NCBI GenBank assembly: GCA_961205875.1
Contig: OY540817.1
Location: forward strand, 14,233,001 to 14,297,000
DNA: 64,000 bases
Direction: 5' to 3'
From: Sialis fuliginosa
Taxonomy: Eukaryota; Arthropoda; Insecta; Megaloptera; Sialidae
Shown here piece after piece: positions 2,498 through 55,671 of the stretch (positions within the stretch are counted from its first letter, which is position 1; each line of letters begins with the position of its first letter). The notes under the pieces are model-generated. The model worked only from the letters and a program-made list of their open reading frames with translations. It did no database searches and was not told the origin of the DNA. The position numbers and the translations under genes are program-made.

Positions 2498-3545
2498 GAA
2501 ACTTTTTTACCTCATCCTTCCTTCTTATATATTATACTAGCTGGACCCGCGCGGCTTCGCTCGCGTGGACTACGGAATTATTGTTTAGGATTTAAAAAAT
2601 ATATAGTTGAATTAAGTACAAACACGATTAGTTATTATTGTAATAAAAACCAAATAACTTAAATTACCTACCTAACAAAAACGAATTAGAACAAAAAGTA
2701 AAAATAATTTTGTTCTATTTAAATTTAAACGTAAATTATTGAAAACAAAATAAACAATTGTCAATCAAAAGAATACCGGCACGCTCCCTCTTTACCGCAC
2801 GCCGCGACACGAGTCACCATCGCGCGAATAATATGTTCCCGTATGTATATTTCGATATTTTCTAAACTATACGACCAAATTGGATGCTGTAAAGGGCAAA
2901 TTATATCTACATTAAGTACTTATGACGATGAAATCATTTATTTCGATAAAGATTAATGTTTTTCAGGTCATAAGTCCACGTAAACAAAACCCAAATATTT
3001 TAAATTTTATTTGTAACATAAAAGCAATTATTGTGGCTTAAATATAAAAGTTAGACATAGGATGTCGTTGACTTTCTTGTAGATCTTTTGATTCTACACA
3101 ATTCATTAATACATTATTTTGTTCAATATTGAACGGCTTAGGCAGCGTATTGTAAAATAGTGCGCTGATGGCAAAATTTTTTTCGACTTGATTTACTATT
3201 ATCGTCACTGCTTAGTTGTTATGTTACCTAACATAACAAAATATAGCCTATAACCTGGGCAGAGAACGTACCTATGAATTAAAAAAGAAACCACGCAATT
3301 CTGATGTGTTTAGTATATACCTATATGCAAATGGTTTTACCAAACAACTTGTCTAGTCCTTATTTTTATTTTTGAAAATTAATTTAATCATTAGTACTTA
3401 TATTTTAATGTAAAATTAACGCACTCTGTTTCTTGTGTTTCGTTTTTTACTTTTTCGTCACATCTCTGAATGTTTTATGAAATTAATTTGTATCTATTTA
3501 TGTATTTATACTATATAAGAAGGGAGGATGAGGTAAGAAGTTTTG
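2498..3545. repeat. Dispersed retroelement-like repeat R1, copy 1
   Basis: From about 2535 it starts with TAGCTGGACCCGCGCGGCTT and shares most of 2535-3290 with 32730-33500, including TACGACCAAATTGGATGCTG and the 3250-3280 block. The CGCGGCTTCGCTCGCG head is common in dispersed insect retroelements; the exact class is not assigned. The copy is bracketed by short inverted matches (CTCATCCTTCCTTCTTATAT near 2511; mirror near 3512-3532). No open frame survives. Confidence 0.7.
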
Positions 3546-5560
3546 AATCCAGAATGTATCGCTGCTCCCCCTATAGTTTTTAAAATAATTATTTTTATAT
3601 GCACATCACTAATATAATATGATAATAATTAAGAAATGATAATAATTAAAGTAGGTAAATGTAATAACAATAGACGATTTTTTTCTTTTGGTACATAACA
3701 ATATTTTCAATGTACCTAACTATTACATGTTTTGTATTTCTTAAAAAAAACCAGAAGAATACAATAGTATCGAAGGTTTTAATTTTCACATGTGATATAT
3801 ATATCATGAAAGTAGTACATATTTTATGATGAAAAATCATATGTACTTTTCTGACATGCATGTAATATTAACTGTCACATATCAGTTTTATTTCCAGATA
3901 CGGATTTAATTAATATTGGTTATTTAATTTATTAAATAATAGGTACTTACTATTTTTAATTGTAAACTTAAAATGTATGTTGGATTTCTATGACATAGTC
4001 AACTTTATATACAAGTATGTATATAGTTTTATCCTTATCTATGTATTTTTTAAACAGACACTGGACACATTTCTTAACTTTGCTATAATGAAATTAAATT
4101 TAAATAAACATTATCAAATTAATTGGTACGGGACACTAGTTTGCAATGTTCGACTCGCATTTGACAAATTTGTCCTTTAAGGATTGCACATTTGTAATTT
4201 GAGAGCTTCACACCAAAATAACTCCTATAATTAAATTAAAATCAATCACCGATTTATACAAAAATTAATAACAATAATATAATATGCTGTCAAAAATATG
4301 ATTGTATAATTAAAATATTTATAAATAGGCTGGCTGCAACAAGGTGGGACTAGTGGTACAGTTACACCGGGTCCCGGAATTTGGCTCCCCATTTGATATA
4401 GAAAATGAGATCATATATTAATCTAGTTGATTAATATATGATGAGATATACGAAAGCAGGCATGATAATGTTGCTACGACACATACTTTGAAAAAAAAAA
4501 TCGACGAAAGTAAGACGGGCTCCAACATTTCTGTTGCCGGGCCTGGCTGTAACTTCTAAACTATTATAAGTAATACATATATGATAATAATCTAACAAAC
4601 ATTTTAATTAAAACCATTCTGAAACTTACCTACGAATATATGATTCATAGTTCCAGAGTACTAGTCGCTAAATATGAGATTTTTTATTGTCTTCTAATTG
4701 ATAGCTTGCTTAGATCGTAAAAACCGTAGCACCGACTCTGATGTTAATACACATCGTCACGTCCTTTTGTTTTTCATGTATGTATTTTAATCGATAACAG
4801 ATTTTTTGTGATGTGAAAATGTCATTATGTCATAGATATTACATTACACCAGTAGATAGTAGCAATGTACCCGTTGTGACCTTGTCATAAAAAATGATCA
4901 CTTATGAAATACTTCCATTGTTACATCTAATTGTTGTTTACCGACCATTGTCTATATACACAGTATAATGCAATAATGTTATTAATTTATGTCTTTCGCA
5001 GTGACTTTTATGAGGTTATCAATATGCGATTTATAGCTGTTATTATGCGGTCGGAGAGTTTAGATATTCGGGAATCGAGATATTTCATTGTTGGATTTTG
5101 AAAAATACGTTATCGTTTTAAACAACGACTATTTGAATTAACGTTTTCAATTGTTTACTGTTGGATTTTATAGCGTTGAATAATCTGGATGGTTATACAT
5201 GATTGAAATTAAAAAGCAAAATTAATGTACGTCCCATGAGCCATTTTGAAAAACACAATCAACTACACTTTTTTCGATTAATAAAAGTTTGAAATCTGAA
5301 AATTAATTAATGAATTACAGAAGCCAAAATAAAATGTATTATTTTCAAAATATTTATTAATGTGTAGTTGATGGGCGTCAGAAGAATATTTTCTCAGGGG
5401 ATGATGGATTTTTGTTTCTAAAATTTGTTGAATCACTTAAAAATTGTCTAAAATTAGTCTATTAATAGATTTCCTTGAAGGCCCAAGCAGCTGTAATTTT
5501 TTTAATGATGTTTTGTTCTGCTTTTGTGACAATAATCAATTAAACTAAAAATATACACTT
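3546..5560. other. Intergenic DNA with small element fragments
   Basis: No gene recognised. It contains a 13-bp perfect hairpin at 4411-4441 (TCATATATTAATC, loop TAGTT) and GC-richer TE-like scraps at 4330-4390 and 4510-4555 (CGGGCCTGGCTG). Confidence 0.5.
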
Positions 5561-5579
5561 TAACCACAATAAAACAATG

Positions 5580-5626
5580 TCACTCTACACGTGTTTCGAC
5601 TTTACAAGAAGTCATCATCAGAAGCC
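5580..5626 (-). ncRNA. Hammerhead-ribozyme-like motif, Penelope type (copy H1)
   Basis: On the minus strand, CTGATGA (5621-5615) is followed by a stem II GACTT/AAGTC hairpin, GAAA (5597-5594), the palindrome CACGTG (5593-5588) and GTA, the predicted cleavage triplet (5588-5586). Flanking bases GGCTT and GAGTG can form a stem I of about four pairs including two wobbles. A stem III reduced to a few self-complementary bases is known for hammerheads carried by Penelope-like retroelements, which cleave best as dimers. All conserved core bases are present. Activity is inferred, not shown. Confidence 0.65.
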
Positions 5627-6705
5627 TAATAGTTATGGTGTATATTTTAGTTTAAGTGACTAAGAAATTACAGGTTTTTCGTTTTTTCAATAACAATAAT
5701 CAATATTTATATACATAAATGTGATATACAAAAAAAAATAAAAATAAAATATGAATATGGCAATTCTTTTCTTCTGTAATAAGTATTTAACAGTAAAGCG
5801 TGCGTGAGACAACGACACGTGAAATTATTATTGTTCCAAATTATGTCATTAACAAAACTTAACCTCTAAAGTCAACTTGCCAGTGAATTTATCACAATAA
5901 AGTAATCATTCTCATTAAAAAAAAAACAGATCCACGCGTCATTAAGTGTATGAGAAAAAATATTTAATTAATAATTTCGTTTATTTTTAAGAATTATGCA
6001 TATTTTATAGTATTTAAACCGTTCTGAAGCCAGTATGATTAACTGTTACTCATAATCAGTGGTTTAAATGAAAAGATCCTGATTTTTCAAGCAGAGTTGG
6101 AAAAATTATTAAATGATAAAAATAAAAGAAAAATAAACTAAGTATTTTTTTATGTTTTTATTTATTTAAATTTTTGGGTGCCCCACTGGTTATTAATTAA
6201 TTATCAATATTTATTCTTTTATTTGTGTTTTTGAACGGATCTTTTTAAAATGAATTAACACTTTGAATGTTAAATAATATTACTGAGCTGTCGGATTAGG
6301 ACCAAGCCTGCTGACATCTTTGTAGAAAAAAAATTAAATAAAACAGAAATAAAATATCATATACCAATTAAAAACATATAAATATAATTACATAATATTC
6401 AGTAACCTGTATTTAAAACAATACTCTGCACTGCAATATCCTAAAGCAAACATTATAAAGAAAATATTAAATTACAGTCAGGTATTATACACACAGACGT
6501 GAAGTTGGGCATTTGTAGTTGTACAACTTCCGGTGCTCTACTTCCTGTGTAGCATATGGCGGCAAGAAAATTATTTATACAAGATTCCGCTTTGAAAACT
6601 TTAGGTATTCTTTAACTGTGCGGTTTTAGTCGCCAAATTATGAATGTTATCTTTGTTTTTGTTTTATGAACGTTATGATTTTTGATATCTACATAAAGAA
6701 AACTT

Positions 6706-19802: not shown

Positions 19803-19842
19803 AAACATTTCGTTACACATTACTGTGGACATCTTCAGGAAA
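19803..19842 (-). ncRNA. Degenerate hammerhead-like motif (H2)
   Basis: The minus strand reads CCTGAAGATGTCCACAGTAA, then GTGTAACGAAATGTTTG: a CTGAAGA box, a hairpin and GAAA. It closely matches the motif at 42741-42780. No GTH cleavage triplet follows the GAAA, so activity is doubtful. Confidence 0.4.
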
Positions 19843-27327: not shown

Positions 27328-27790
27328 TTAAATATAAATAAGAACAAACTTGTTTGTTTAAACGTCAAAATTTAATAAAGAAGAGGAAAACGCAAGCTTT
27401 CGATTCATAGAATCATCGTCAGGCTAAAATATAATAAGTAACAATTAAATACAATAAATATAATGCAAAATATTGATATTTTAACATAAGATTTAAATTT
27501 GAGAACGATGTCGTTATCTCAATAATATTCATGTGACTACGGAAATGTTTGAAAAAATAACATATCTCTTTGTAACTCAAATAGTTACTAAGGAACGAAA
27601 AAATTGATTTAAAAATTAATGACAATAATTAATTATTTAAAATTGTGTTGTAAATATATATTTAAATATGTATTTAATTGTTACTTATTATATTTTAGCC
27701 TGACGATGATTCTGTGAATCGAAAGCTTGCGTTTTCCTCTTCTTTATTAAATTTTGACGTTTAAACAAACAAGTTTGTTCTTATTCATAA
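27328..27790. mobile_element. Inverted-arm, Penelope-like fragment pair with hammerhead-like cores
   Basis: The arms 27340-27445 and 27672-27787 are nearly perfect inverse copies. Both carry CCTGACGATGATTCT, a GATTC/GAATC hairpin and GAAAGCTTGCG (plus strand 27699-27732; minus strand about 27426-27392), and end in AACGTC with ACAAACTTGTTTGTTT. The layout resembles hammerhead cores of Penelope-like elements, but no GTH triplet is correctly placed. A related palindrome follows at 27889-27971 and a further fragment at 34249-34330. Confidence 0.55.
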
Positions 27791-32700: not shown

Positions 32701-32729
32701 AGTTTTAGGTTGGTCAGATTTGTACTAAA

Positions 32730-33608
32730 CTAGCTGGGCCCACGCGGCTTCGCTCGCGTAGACTACGGAATTATTGTTTAAGATTTTTGAAAAATATAGT
32801 TTGTACTGTTATTATTATTATTGTAATAATAATTTATCAATACCTAAATTACCCAACAAAAACGAATCAGAAGAAAAAAGTACAAATAATTTGTGTTCTG
32901 TTTAAATTTAAATGTTAATTATTGAAAACAAAATAAACACAAACGATCAACCGAGGGACTCCGAATATCTACCGAGCGTACGCGAATCCAGTCTGATGTA
33001 CTCGCTTCGATGCGGCACGACACCATACATTTAAGATATTATCTTTATAAATATATTTTAAGATATTTTCTAAACTATACGACCAAATTGGATGCTGTAA
33101 ATGGCAAACTATATCTACATTAAGTACTTATGACGATGAAATCATTTATTTCGATAAGGATTAATGTTTTGCAGGTCATAAGTCCATGTAAACAAAACCC
33201 AAATATTTTATGTTTTCTTTGTAACATAAAAGCAGTCATTGTGGCTTAAATATAAAAGTTAGACATATCGTGTCGCTGACTTAATTGTAGAACTTTTGAT
33301 TCTACACAATTCTTTAATACATTATTTTGTTCTATATTGAACGGTTTAGGCAGCGTATTACAAAACAGCGCGCCGACGGCAAAATTTTTTCCGACTTGAT
33401 TTACTATTATCGTCACTGCTTTGTTGTTATGTTACCTAACGTAAAAAAATATAGCCTATAACCTGGCCAGAGAACGTACCTATGAATTAAAAAAAAAAAC
33501 TCGTAAATCGGATAAGTGGTTCTCGAGTGATAAGGTAACTAACGGACAGACAGACAGACAGACAGACAGACAGAGAGACGTTGAGCTTTATATATATTAA
33601 GGATGAGC
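32730..33608. repeat. Dispersed retroelement-like repeat R1, copy 2
   Basis: The head is TAGCTGGGCCCACGCGGCTT. The body matches 2535-3290. The tail has an ACAGACAGACAG run at 33545-33575, then TTTATATATATTAAGGATGA. This copy retains the tail that copy 1 lacks. Head and tail together look like a complete short retroelement; no reading frame is kept. Confidence 0.7.
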
Positions 33609-34666: not shown

Positions 34667-35696
34667 AAATAAGACACTTTTTGACTTTTAATATAGATTC
34701 ATGATTATGTATATTTAATACGATTTGAAAGGCGATGTTTATCTCACAATCAGTTACTATTTTTTTACGAGTACCTACAATTTATCCAACTGAAATGTCG
34801 ATTTGACCAATTGTTACTATTTTTTGTACAAATTTAAAATGAAAGTGGTGTGGGTGATTTTTAACATCACTATATTAAAAATTAAGTTTTTATTAGTAGA
34901 TACAGTTAAGTATCAACTATCAATAAAAAAAAAAAAAAAACGTAAATGTTTCAAAAGTTTCCTTTGATGATGAGTTGACAGAATAGCAGAAGTTAGAAAA
35001 GTTTGATTGAAAAATAATTATTCATTCTACCGCATGTTCTCCAGATATTATCCTTTTGAATTAGCATTTATTCCTAAGTTTGGCTGCCGTAATTCAACTG
35101 TTCTACTCATTTGAGAAAAAAAACGAATCTTTCTTAACCAGTATCAGTATGGCTATAACCGAAAAAAAAAATATTATTTTTTCCTTTGTGAGCTGAAAAA
35201 TTATGAAAATTTATTTCGACTTGAAATTTTGCTTCCTGAAATAATGACATTTGAGGTTAATCGTTCAATTAAATCTTGACAAATTATGCCGGGCGTTAAA
35301 AATATTTTATGTATTGTTTAGAGTTTCGATGAAGATTTAATGAGTATGTTCTAATTTTGTTATTGTTAATCAACTCTTAGGCAAAAAAAAACATCTTCCT
35401 CTTGCTCAAAGTGGTCCAAATCATTGTAATTTATTATATGTAAATTCAATAATATGGATTTTGAGACATTTTTTTGAAACTCCTAGAAATCCCCCCAACC
35501 CCTCTAAAAAACAAAAAACAATAGCAATCAATTTTTAAATAAGAATAGCTTTTAACTTCTAGGAAATGAATCTTACAAAAGCATAACAATTCAGTAAAAT
35601 AAAGAAAGAAGAATATATAATTATCTGATATCTGTTCTAATTTAAGAATCTCACAAAAATATCGCTTAACTAAAAAATACACCTTAACCACAATAA

Positions 35697-35755
35697 AACA
35701 ATGTCACTCGACACGTGTTTCGACTTCACAAGAAGTCCTTATCAGGAGCCTAAGA
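35697..35755 (-). ncRNA. Hammerhead-ribozyme-like motif, Penelope type (copy H3), mutated core
   Basis: The minus strand has CTGATAA (35745-35739), the hairpin GACTTC/GAAGTC, GAAA (35721-35718), CACGTG (35717-35712) and GTC (35712-35710). Stem I (GGCTC with GAGTG) pairs better than in copy H1. The core differs from CTGANGA by one G-to-A change at a base important for catalysis, so it is probably inactive. A partial inverse copy (GAAGTCGAAACACGTATA) follows at about 35778-35795. Confidence 0.6.
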
Positions 35756-35815
35756 GTTCTGGAACTTCACTTCTTGTGAAGTCGAAACACGTATATTTTT
35801 AGTTTATGTGACTAA

Positions 35816-41480: not shown

Positions 41481-42601
41481 TTATTATTGACTATTTGATT
41501 AATAATTAAAAAAAGAATAATGAAACTTCATTTTCTGGAGGTCAAAGAGACAATTTTTTTTGTCGATTTTTAATTTTACCTGTATTTGATAAACGAGCTT
41601 TTTTTATTTGTCTATATTAGTTATAACATGCTACCTATTATTTTCTAGTATATAAATGTCTACCGGTCAGACATAAGCACGCAAGCACAATCTATAATAT
41701 TATTTTTATACTAAATTTTTAATAGCTTCTTGTCCAACCTTAAATCATAAAAAAATCATTTACTTACATTATAATTTGAATTCTTGTGCGATATTAAGGG
41801 TAAAAAGTAGCTAAAATTAATATTTACATATTCCTTTTATAAAAAATTCTATTGTGTAAACGTAATTGGAAATCATAAATCAATTTTACTGCCTCCAAGA
41901 TACAAAAAGATCATACCTCGGTCATTAAATGTAAAATATGTAACTAATTTAAATTGATTGAGATAGGAATTCACATATTGAAAGTTGAAAATAAAGCAAA
42001 ATCTATGAATAGCCTAAAGAAGGAACAATTACTGCCAATGTAATATCCTGTCTTTTATAATTGCTAAATATGCACATCGGAATGAATGAAATCACTATAA
42101 TTATGTGAAAAATTTAAATTAAGAGATCATTTGGTTGCTGTGTAATTGTAAAATTCTATTAGTTTGTATGGATTTATTATTAAGAGTGAAAATTGTCAAT
42201 ACCTACCTATATTATTAGTTCGTATATACGTGAGAAGTTTTAAATTTGTTTTTAGGTGTTAATTTTTATGGTACAGTTGATTGGACATATATTTTAAAGA
42301 TAATATAGTAGTTTCTTATTGCAGAAATGATCGAAATTTCTACTTTTACTTTTAAAATTTGTTTTAGTTCAAATAAACAAAATGAAACATAAAAATAATG
42401 TGTTTGTACGAAAACATCATTAAAGTGCAGATTCACTGAAGAAACCAGAGCTGTCATTGTACTCACAATCAGTACTCAATGTCAGTGCAGAAGTATCAAT
42501 AAAGTGATCATTTTCAAAAATAAAATATTATAAAATTATACAAGTCTTGAGTTTTTCACGGTGATTTTGATATGGATCTTGGCTTATGGGTGTAAGCCGC
42601 G

Positions 42602-42798
42602 TTGATTTGGTCGTGTTATCGGCCAACGTTGCGTCACACATTGCAGTGGACATCTACAGGGCTCTTCTAAAAGTGCACTGAGGCAATCGAGTACCGTGGT
42701 TAAAAACTGGTTTGGGCAGCTCGGACCCTTTAGAAGAGCCCTGAAGATGTCCACTGCAATGTGTGACGAAACATTGGCCGATAACACGACCAAATCGA
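42602..42798. mobile_element. Inverted pair of Penelope-like arms with hammerhead-like cores (H4)
   Basis: The arms 42602-42670 and 42731-42798 are inverse copies. On the plus strand CTGAAGA (42741-42747), a GTCCAC/GTGTGAC hairpin and GAAA (42768-42771) are followed by CATTGGCCGATAACACGACC. The minus arm has GCAA instead of GAAA. No GTH triplet is placed as in a canonical hammerhead. The opposed short open frames here are reflections of the arms. Confidence 0.55.
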
Positions 42799-42799
42799 C

Positions 42800-53200: not shown

Positions 53201-55671
53201 AAAATTATTAGTTAAGTTGTGGCAAATAATTATCCAATTGGAAAATATTTTTCATAACGTTAATATTTTATCGTCTTGTATATATTAGGTGAAAAATTAG
53301 TGGCATCGTTATTAAACAATTGTTTTTTTTTTGCACAGGTTTACTTGATACTAGCTGTAGCGTTCACAGCTGCGCTCGCAGCCGATGAAGAGACTGACAA
53401 AAACAAGCGGGGAACAGTTGGAGGTATTGTTTACGCGGGCAAGTCCGCGCCGGTCACTGTCACCGCAGCTCCGGTCGTTACTAAAACTGTTTCTCCTAAT
53501 GTAGCGTTCTCGTCCAATACTGTCTACGCAACACCCGCGCCTGCGTTTGCAGCTAATGTCGCCTACACCGCAGCCCAGCCTGCGTACACAGTTGCGGCAG
53601 CACCGCAGCAGTATATTCACGGACAACAATTTGGTAGGTCAAAAATAAAAAATTTAAAAATATTTACATCACATCTTAAGTAAAATTTTCATCGGCACCA
53701 ATGTCTAATTCAGGGTATTTGCACAAGCAAATGACAAAAATATTTTCGAAGAAAAAATATATTTATTTTGACTAACGTTTTGCTAGAAATTACAGTGGGC
53801 GTCTTCGGGGCATTAAGATCTATACAAAAATAAAATATTTTAAAATTTTATTGACGCATTAGTCATGGACTTTATTTTATATGATTTTAATATATACATG
53901 AATAATTACAGCGTATGCACCGCAAGCAGTTAAGATAGGCTACGCTCAACCAAACTACGCACAACAAGTTTACTCGCAGCAACTCGTCCAGCCAGCAGCT
54001 ACGTACGCAGTTTCTCCAGCGCAGCAACATTACATACAACCACAAGCCTACACATTCGATCAGCAACAAGCTGTTAAAATCGGTTACGCTCAACCAGCTG
54101 CTGCGCAACTTTACGCCCACCAACCTGCATTGACAGTTGCTCACGCGCAACAATACGCCCACCAACCTGCATTGACAGTTGCTCACGCGCAACAATACGC
54201 CCATCAACCTGCATTGACAGTTGCTCATCAAGCACCCGCTTACACTTTGGCCCATGCACAGCCGTTGGCAGTTGCACAATCCCATCCACAGTTGACTTAC
54301 GCCTTACATCAGCCACAACAGATCCAGTATGCTGCGCCGGCAGCTGTGAAGGTTGGATACGCACAGCCAGCTTATGCTAAAGTCGCAGGAGTTCAACAAG
54401 TCAATTATGCAGCTCCAGCTGTAACTAAGGTATTATGGTTTTTTAATGTACAAAGCAATTCATAACACTTTTCTATGATTAAATATATTTATTTGTGATT
54501 GTTGCAAATTTTGAAAAGACAGGGAACAAATATTTAAATGGGAAAGGCATTATACAAAATATTAAAGTATTATTAAAATCTTAAAAATGTGTTACAATAA
54601 AATAACTTAATTCTCCCGAAAATATTTATATTTTATTATTTAATATTGCCTTCACTGTCATTTTTTCGGGGAAACATTGTTTATTTTCAATTAGTTGTTT
54701 AAATATGAACCTGCTGAAAAATATTTATGATATTGCGTGATGTGAATTGTGAATAATAATCTAGTATTTTAAAGAAACGATGTGAATAAACGTTTTTTAG
54801 TAAACGTTGAAAAAACTATAAAAAACTGTTTATTAAATTTTGTTTTTCTATCTATTAAGCATTAAAAATCTATGCTAGGATTGTACACTGAGACAAAACG
54901 GAAATTTTTCGTGAGGGAGCTACAGACCCCTAAAGATTTTGCTTAAAACTTTTAATTTATTTTTAATAGGTAGTATAACAAGGTATATTTTTGTGTATTT
55001 TGTAGCATATAACCATATAAAATTGTCAAATATAGGAAAAAAATTAAAAACAAAAAAATACTAGCTAATAATCATTGGTTGATACTGGAAATCGATAATA
55101 CTTATAAATACTAAATTGGGTGTCAAATTTAATTACTGTATCGCGATGTTTTTAGGCAAAATTTGTGGGGGTCTGTAGCTCCCTCTTGAAGAATTTCCGG
55201 ACACATGTTCATATAAACTTTTTTGCTTCAAATTTTTTTCTCGATCAACTGTTCAAGTTTGTTTCACCTGATTTGACTCAGCCTGTATAAAGATTCGTTT
55301 CATAAAAATAATTCCTTTTTAAATTATAGATATCTGTTTCGATAAGTATTTTTGTCCACTATGTAATTAAAAAATATGAAATATTTTCTTCAAAATTCAA
55401 AACGGATTAACTGATATATATATTTCAGGTTGGATACGCTGCACCTGTAGCATCTGCTCCCCTCCACTACTCTCCAGCGGGATCCGTATCCCAGTTCTCA
55501 TACAGCAGTCCTAATGTGAGGTACGGTTCCTCCGGGATCGAGTTCCTCAAGGCCGGCCATGTCGCCACAGCTCCGATTGCTTACGCTTCGGCTCCACAAC
55601 CGCTGTACGCGCCAGCTCCATACGCCAAAGTAGGATACGCCGCTCCAGTTTACTCCAACTATGCTCACTAA
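50207..55671 (+). CDS. Gene B: secreted Ala/Gln/Tyr-rich low-complexity cuticle-like protein (4 coding exons)
   Basis: Exons 50207-50215, 53339-53633, 53912-54429 and 55429-55671 total 1065 nt and encode 354 residues. All introns are GT-AG with phases 0, 1 and 0. The joined N-terminus, MRAVYLILAVAFTAALA, is a signal peptide, followed by a Lys-Arg site at 26-27. The mature part is a low-complexity matrix with Ala-Ala-Pro and Tyr-Ala motifs and a recurrent K(I/V)GYA(Q/A)P motif (near residues 109, 157, 247, across the exon 3/4 junction, and near the C-terminus). It also has a 14-residue tandem repeat at 169-209. Known insect structural cuticular proteins often have A-A-P-rich repeats and a first intron interrupting the signal peptide after a few codons, as here. 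No Rebers-Riddiford consensus is seen. Likely role: extracellular cuticle component; the exact family is not assigned. Confidence 0.88.
50250..50280. repeat. CA microsatellite at the start of gene B intron 1
   Basis: An interrupted (CA)n run with one CACACATACTCACAC interruption, about 35 bases after the exon 1 donor. Confidence 0.8.
53339..53633 (+). CDS. Gene B exon 2 (rest of signal peptide, Ala/Val-rich region)
   Basis: The acceptor is a T-rich tract ending TTGCACAG at 53338. The exon codes residues 4-101, beginning VYLILAVAFTAALAADEE, and ends at TTTG|GTAGGT. Motifs such as TVTAAPVVTK and VAYTAAQPAYTVAAAP are typical of low-complexity cuticle proteins. The antisense open frame (53351-53629) is a composition shadow. 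Confidence 0.85.
53776..53815 (-). repeat. Degenerate hammerhead-like motif in gene B intron 2
   Basis: The minus strand reads CCCCGAAGACGCCCACTGTA, then ATTTCTAGCAAAACGTT. It aligns with the 42.7 and 19.8 kb motifs but has lost both conserved boxes (CTGA to CCGA, and GAAA to CAAA). Confidence 0.45.
53912..54429 (+). CDS. Gene B exon 3 (GYAQP motifs and 14-residue tandem repeats)
   Basis: The acceptor ATTACAG ends at 53911. The exon codes residues 103-274 and ends at ACTAAG|GTATTA. It holds three K(I/V)GYAQP motifs, and a 42-bp tandem repeat (units at 54112, 54154 and 54196, the third incomplete) coding YAHQPALTVAHAQQ. Antisense open frames across this exon mirror the Gln/Ala repeats and are not genes. 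Confidence 0.87.
54112..54234 (+). repeat. 42-bp coding tandem repeat in gene B
   Basis: Two complete 42-bp units and one shortened unit start at 54112, 54154 and 54196. Units 1 and 2 are virtually identical at the DNA level, so the expansion or its homogenisation is recent. This is a likely site of length polymorphism. Confidence 0.85.
54899..55200. mobile_element. Foldback element in gene B intron 3
   Basis: The arms 54899-54950 and 55147-55200 are inverse copies, sharing GAGGGAGCTACAGACCCC. The right arm continues into a block shared with 41378-41475, so the right boundary may lie near 55290. Confidence 0.65.
55429..55671 (+). CDS. Gene B exon 4 (C-terminus)
   Basis: The acceptor TATTTCAG ends at 55428. 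The exon codes residues 275-354, starting VGYAAPVASAP and ending KVGYAAPVYSNYAH with stop TAA at 55669-55671. The first residues complete the TKVGYAAP motif begun in exon 3, which supports the splice junction. A short non-repetitive stretch, SSPNVRYGSSGIEFLKAGH, lies in its middle. Confidence 0.87.
   Translation, partial: VGYAAPVASAPLHYSPAGSVSQFSYSSPNVRYGSSGIEFLKAGHVATAPIAYASAPQPLYAPAPYAKVGYAAPVYSNYAH

Follow-up and report, generated by a model that had tools for sequence, protein, structure and literature searches.

Minimal type I hammerhead ribozymes of Penelope-like elements (PLEs) are the closest described counterparts of the motif analyzed here. In the passages of two reports that cover them (PMC7761336, PMC7229834, reporting Cervera & de la Pena 2014 and Lunse et al. 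2017), these ribozymes lack a proper helix III, cleave as dimers, and lie in pseudo-LTRs (pLTRs), with animal genomes holding thousands of such motifs at scattered sites; their in vivo activity and role are termed a mystery in the relevant section of the 2020 review (PMC7761336). For the Anolis element PAc, the sections of PMC11167929 used here describe two internal start sites, both-strand copying, a hammerhead in the locus, and cleavage seen only with the PLE protein. Rotifer Penelope insertions, in the structural part of PMC3846280, comprise a pLTR, an inverted shorter pLTR, a one-sided 31-bp tail, target-site duplications (TSDs) of 8–10 bp, and head-to-head arms. According to part of PMC7229834, animal retrozymes are arranged as direct tandem copies and give rise to circular RNAs; the ribozyme that they carry is mostly of the classical type I.

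The locus described here lies in a 64,000-nucleotide stretch of the Sialis fuliginosa genome (contig OY540817.1, positions 14,233,001–14,297,000), hereafter the window. Like the known PLE hammerheads as those passages present them, the ribozymes in this genome take the minimal type I form without a proper helix III and occur in hundreds of dispersed copies; unlike them, they have new sequences and, in some lineages, palindromic stems III of 8 and 14 nt. The kind of ribozyme—a dimer-type PLE hammerhead—is already known; the sequences are new. In the PAc sections, the ribozyme sits at the pLTR/ORF start in the same format as here, and its RNA, compared by eye, shows one additional U ahead of stem II together with GAA-ACGU-C, also as here (PMC11167929). 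The inverted shorter arm, tail, TSD, head-to-head arms, and microhomology joint are common to the rotifer elements and to those reported here, whereas the rotifer elements of that part of the source are mostly long (solo pLTRs are mentioned) and here there are hundreds of copies, the measured ones with about 100–150 bp per arm (PMC3846280). With retrozymes, as far as that part of the source describes them, the Sialis units share small non-coding size, type I hammerheads, and, in one array, direct tandems; they differ in being mostly single or head-to-head and in carrying a minimal hammerhead (PMC7229834).

The window motif and its insertion

Read on the minus strand, positions 5621–5586 consist of CTGATGA, a single T, a 5-bp stem II, GAA, the palindrome ACACGTGT, and A. 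The individual elements are CTGATGA (5621–5615), the extra T between A9 and stem II (5614), an intact stem II of 5 bp closing a 6-nt loop (GACTT-CTTGTA-AAGTC, 5613–5598), GAA (5597–5595), the palindrome (5594–5587), and A17 (5586), flanked by the stem I strands GCTT (5′ side, 5625–5622) and GAGT (3′ side, 5585–5582). All letters of a type I hammerhead core—CUGANGA...GAA, A15.1-U16.1, and H17—are present, so read as one feature (5586–5621, minus strand) the core is whole, with predicted cleavage between 5586 and 5585. Stem I is weak, with four pairs (U.G, U-A, C-G, and G.U), two of them G.U. A sequence-only reading of this DNA had named the motif pieces in order on the minus strand, and each is found at its place. 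The self-complementary CACGTG that it described is likewise present; the full palindrome is the 8-nt ACACGTGT, which takes in A15.1 and U16.1, and the extra nucleotide before stem II was missing from that earlier description.

The motif exceeds what chance supplies in DNA of this composition. A structured descriptor (the core, at most one extra nucleotide, stem II of at least 4 bp, a palindromic or hairpin stem III, H17, and stem I of at least 3 bp) matched the window solely at 5621–5586, and in 300 random 64-kb sequences generated with dinucleotide steps taken from the window it matched three times, a rate of about 1% per window. For the looser pattern CTGANGA-N{6,30}-GAAA, the window has 7 matches where 1.8 would be expected. 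As a scale for stem III, a palindrome of 4–12 nt follows 167 of the 1008 GAAA sites in the window.

The ribozyme belongs to a complete 152-bp insertion (5541–5692) between two copies of an identical 12-bp TSD, ATTGATTATTGT on the minus strand, at 5529–5540 and 5693–5704; a shared 12-mer occurred at 40 of 100,000 random boundary pairs placed 152 apart in the window. The forward arm (5541–5634, minus strand) holds the ribozyme and its leader and stops at the proximal 3′ end known from other copies of its repeat family, F1, at TTTTAGTTTA. The inverted arm (5632–5692, plus strand) is a pLTR 3′ end with a tail of about 35 nt, reversed relative to the ribozyme; over its full 61 nt it can be aligned to +57..+117 of the copy with a tail at locus L020. 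The two arms are joined head-to-head with a 3-nt overlap, AAC. The window copy accordingly shows the insertion traits of PLEs (TSD, one-sided tail, inverted arm), and the minimal Penelope-type format proposed from sequence alone is borne out by motif layout, duplication, tail, and arms together. Reverse transcriptase (RT) and GIY-YIG coding are absent, and an insert of 152 bp is too short for a gene, which leaves it non-autonomous at most.

Comparison with other F1 copies bears on whether this copy is functional. Beside the predicted cleavage site, the window copy has U.G where the other F1 copies read have C-G; it has GUA where the copies at L020, L025, L070, and near 35.7 kb have GUC; and its extra nucleotide is U against G in the other F1 copies read. 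The remaining fetched F1 copies read GTATC, having been chosen by a GTA pattern. The U.G pair, the GUA, the extra U, and a predicted dimer without stem I speak against the earlier description of this copy as apparently intact. From its letters, the window copy is best described as a slightly degenerate non-coding fragment that keeps the core, with stem I weakened.

A second F1 copy, about 90% identical, lies at 35668–35762 on the minus strand with an inverted partial arm before it; its core reads CTGATAA, and with G8 changed to A it is probably dead. A repeat of about 800 bp (82% identical; 2530–3305 and 32723–33513) is found at near-equal distances from both F1 copies, by coincidence or through an old duplication of about 3 kb. 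Elsewhere, a 42-bp tandem repeat (54103–54228) falls within a 187-aa alanine- and glutamine-rich open frame without a Pfam match; Pfam assigned no family to any of three window ORFs.

Repeat families and ribozyme lineages across the genome

Copies were counted in the 392-Mb assembly (20 contigs), as the sequence-only reading had proposed. With two letters left free, the F1 motif matched 712 times and its reversed-pattern control 0 times; a loose ribozyme pattern matched 828 times against 33 for its reversal. A second family, F2 (CTGATGATGATAGCATTGCTATTGAAACACGTGTA), had 392 exact matches, again with 0 in the reversed control. These counts cover the searched strings only, and a single letter in loop II sets the window copy apart from the F1 search pattern. 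A 27-letter F1 pattern had no match in viral_contigs.

Among fetched copies, F1 and F2 units are short (about 100 or 130–145 nt), start about 15–20 nt 5′ of the core, and have two alternative ends about 35 nt apart. For 48 F2 copies, with boundaries gauged against L034, a long copy included in the 48, the 5′ end fell at −11..−18 from the core in 31, of which 13 were exactly at −15, at AGTGTC; the 3′ end fell at +79..+83 in 18, at +113/+114 in 13, and elsewhere in 17. A TATAAATA-like stretch lies upstream on one arm in three longer copies (L034, L038, and L044), from which we infer that the unit 5′ end is a putative transcription start. Flank repeats of at least 9 nt (9–15 nt) were present at both ends of 22 of 38 F2 insertions—6 of 10 pairs and 16 of 28 singles—compared with shuffled-flank means of 0.8 of 10 and 3.6 of 28. 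Copies at L065 and L067 escaped the script's pattern and stand outside the boundary and flank counts.

Orientation is strongly asymmetric. In several of the copies read, two units stand head-to-head and just one side carries a tail. Neighbors within 200 bp were 12 (−,+), 0 (+,−), and 3 (+,+) among the 100 F1 places listed out of 712, and 6 (−,+) and 0 (+,−) among the 47 F2 places listed on contig C1.

The same architecture recurs in lineages of different sequence. Within the window, F5 (CTGACGA-T-GATTC...GAATC-GAA-AGCT-T; 27386–27430, minus strand) faces a head-to-head mate at 27692–27736 on the plus strand, the two forming an inverted repeat (27333–27789) whose 121-nt arms are 98% complementary and each carry a hammerhead-like motif with stem III AGCT. 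F4 (42733–42783, plus strand) has a degenerate stem III, ACAT, and a mutated head-to-head mate that begins near 42659 on the minus strand. A third ribozyme-like lineage, CTGAAGATGTCC...GACGAAA-like, was observed as an inverted repeat at 42601–42799 and solo at 19808–19838, and also at L014 and L021.

Ten representatives—F1 to F6, PLE_L010, PLE_896, PLE_904, and PLE_915—were compared by counting pairs with a script from anchored positions, a MAFFT alignment of 16 copies having misaligned stem III. All ten accommodate a single extra nucleotide ahead of stem II plus a self-complementary stem III, and stem II pairs at 45 of 50 positions (shuffle mean 31.4; 0 of 5000 partner shuffles reach it); because F3, F5, and F6 were noted partly via a scan requiring palindromes and at least three stem II pairs, and the extra nucleotide and stem III length were set per lineage, both of these results lean toward the model. 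Stem I pairs at 30 of 40 positions (shuffle mean 18.2; 0 of 5000); F3, F5, and PLE_904 each form just 2 of 5 pairs there. CTGANGA...GAAA matches that by eye had no such structure, one of them within the ORF of L073, were left out. The stem III palindromes are ACGT in four representatives, ACACGTGT in two, AATT in two, AGCT in one, and AAAATAGCTATTTT in one: five sequences for ten representatives, such that self-complementarity is kept while the letters change between lineages.

Pairing of two transcripts through the palindrome, as the sequence-only reading proposed, finds qualified agreement in two-strand folding. The predicted gain is 8.9 kcal/mol for the window copy and 9.5–9.9 kcal/mol for F1 and F2, where stems I and III would be intermolecular. 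Folding returned a full hammerhead dimer for F2 and the same for F1, where two further pairs form within the core, and stems II and III without stem I for PLE_915 and the window copy. The hammerhead fold was not recovered for the other seven representatives (F3, F4, F5, F6, PLE_L010, PLE_896, and PLE_904), which makes three of ten at best, nor for whole units of about 100 nt, where other structures were preferred. The predicted dimer draws its support from F1, F2, and the palindromes more than from folding generally.

Library searches were largely silent. The covariance-model hit proposed as a check is absent: curated Rfam models gave no match at the gathering threshold in the 64-kb window or in nine further ribozyme loci, so that the curated library recognizes none of the ribozyme loci tested. 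In a permissive search of the window, the only hammerhead match was HH10 (15 bits, E 3.2). We do not regard the missing match as decisive, because the genome-wide copies and the covariation point the other way. Readings as a snoRNA or miRNA were rejected, since SNORD66 (16.3 bits), rliB (19.9), and mir-76 (35.3) all scored under their gathering thresholds; the miRNA-like matches on the 35.7-kb copy sit on its inverted arms.

Penelope-like genes and their arrays

Protein-coding PLEs are apparently present in intact, parent-type form, judging from their reading frames. A GIY-YIG profile search of the genome (150 of 160 candidates scored) gave two matches. One, L011, is a PLE fragment with RVT_1 (1e-10) and GIY-YIG (1.9e-6) in two overlapping frames, and a ribozyme of the same format lies 586 nt downstream (3′) of it on the same strand. 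The other, L009/L012, has the stronger GIY-YIG match by E-value and was set aside, its neighboring cysteine-rich residues being, we presume, reminiscent of SLX1. The L011 reverse transcriptase has at least 120 relatives (120 of 489 candidates scored), many with stop-free frames of at least 896 aa.

Ribozymes accompany these genes. Five of eight regions fetched at the expected distance from PLE genes contain a same-format ribozyme 5′ of the ORF: L072 and L079, which form one family, L077, which is akin to them, and L073 and L075, which form another. No ribozyme was found in the regions fetched at L074, L076, and L078. All four subfamilies in which a hammerhead lies beside an RT gene have a palindromic stem III—ACGT in one, AATT in two that are related, and AAAATAGCTATTTT in one—and these ribozymes came from search patterns without a palindrome requirement. 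The ribozyme of the 896-aa PLE family has 332 exact genome copies, with 0 for the reversed control.

The small families differ from the Anolis element here: in the PAc sections of PMC11167929, the ribozyme overlaps the start codon, whereas the F1 and F2 loci examined gave no RT match. No autonomous element with the F1 family's own pLTR was found among the genome loci examined. A same-strand F2 pair 3.7 kb apart on contig C2 was considered as an autonomous element and rejected: the middle 701 bp fetched is interrupted by stops in every frame, and its best RT match does not improve on E 0.058.

Full-length PLE genes occur as outward-facing tandems with units of 3559–3594 bp on several contigs (for example, G000:C10:984944-1019606). 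Opposite-strand neighbors among 896-aa-family ribozymes less than 25 kb apart were 29 (−,+) and 1 (+,−), and both strands were present in 29 of 35 insertions, each count covering the first 100 of 332 places. Units repeat at nearly constant length: eight spacings of exactly 3563 at C10 and seven of 3562 at C7. Across an RT list of 14 hand-picked clusters with 40 spacings, drawn from the 120 of 489 candidates scored, unit lengths differ by a mean of 0.31 nt within insertions and 4.70 between them (0 of 2000 shuffles); for a ribozyme list of 30 spacings, drawn from the first 100 of the 332 places, the corresponding values are 1.84 and 6.60. The arms of seven insertions agree in unit length, with 57 of 20,000 shuffles as close (65 of 20,000 for the ribozyme list). 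The two lists overlap, making their tests not independent, and the unit-length test omitted RT matches without a same-strand cluster and the 915-aa clusters. Exceptions are arms of 3576 vs. 3562, 3570 vs. 3564, and 3594 vs. 3583, such that arms differ by 6–14 nt in three insertions, and one of 3561 vs. 3564.

If a single template were copied by a rolling circle, unit lengths would be uniform inside an insertion and different between insertions, as seen here, but arrays might also have been homogenized by unequal exchange or gene conversion. That PLE insertions arise by rolling-circle reverse transcription of circular RNAs cut out by the dimeric hammerhead is a tentative proposal, which we rate on the doubtful side. 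Short tandems occur as well: five 896-aa-family ribozymes lie on one strand at G000:C4:26069325-26070674, with spacings of 526, 263, 263, and 263, the 263-bp spacing being placed at C4:26069851-26070640.

Competing explanations and significance

The motif is very probably a type I minimal, dimer-type PLE pLTR hammerhead in a very short non-coding insertion. Under this explanation, transcripts would start just upstream of the ribozyme, and the PLE protein would use both cut strands of the target to prime copying at two internal start sites, as described for the Anolis PLE; copying that reaches the RNA 5′ end would leave short inserts. Two RNAs would pair via ACACGUGU to create a shared stem III, and hence two hammerheads, each of which would cleave after UH. 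The window copy would be one dead-end insert of such copying. A chance resemblance in AT-rich DNA, for which the silence of Rfam might speak, has a vanishingly small probability: it is rejected on the rate of descriptor matches in random sequence and on the genome counts of 712 against 0, and the stem pairing of the ten representatives exceeds that of shuffles. A palindromic MITE-like DNA transposon, whose inverted repeat merely happened to contain the motif, would account for the many copies that are inverted repeats. We consider it highly improbable and reject it on the unequal arms and on single-arm copies with flank repeats of their own; the one-sided tail, the variable flank-repeat length (9–15 nt), and the same kind of motif 5′ of PLE genes also count against it.

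A retrozyme, in which a ribozyme-made RNA circle spreads a small non-autonomous element as direct tandem repeats, finds its best case in an F1 insertion at L070 (G000:C1:39236050-39237050), where four 176-bp direct repeats, 99% identical, each carry a ribozyme. This insertion also includes a tail arm in inverted orientation, and its 14-nt flank repeats agree, by eye, at 13 of 14 positions. As proof of a ribozyme-made circle, however, the array was rejected: its 176-bp junction lies off the cleavage site and is private, all 3 exact matches in the genome falling within the array, which may thus be a local duplication. Direct neighbors within 200 bp occur only in this array among the 100 F1 places listed, and the window copy is not tandem, where a retrozyme would have direct repeats of 170–400-bp units; we therefore hold a retrozyme origin improbable. 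It is conceivable, at a low probability, that the motif is kept for another step—binding of the PLE protein, or RNA dimerization that joins templates—with the core a relic or structural. Dimerization bringing two templates together would account for the head-to-head pairs; the ribozyme is kept uncleaved in the inserts, which means that the RNA being copied was whole at that point; self-complementarity is held in different letters; and, in the part of PMC11167929 that describes them, catalytic mutants of the Anolis PLE insert normally in vitro. Against it, the catalytic letters CTGANGA and GAA are kept in all ten representatives, though the search patterns required them.

Read as a PLE hammerhead, the short and dead window insertion is of less interest than the genome around it. 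If the rolling-circle proposal for the full-length arrays is true, the self-complementary stem III would tie together two template RNAs, one per target strand, explaining the head-to-head arms, and the missing biological role of the PLE hammerhead would be supplied. A genome with apparently intact PLEs, hundreds of ribozyme copies, and array lengths that are informative about their templates would make that role directly testable.
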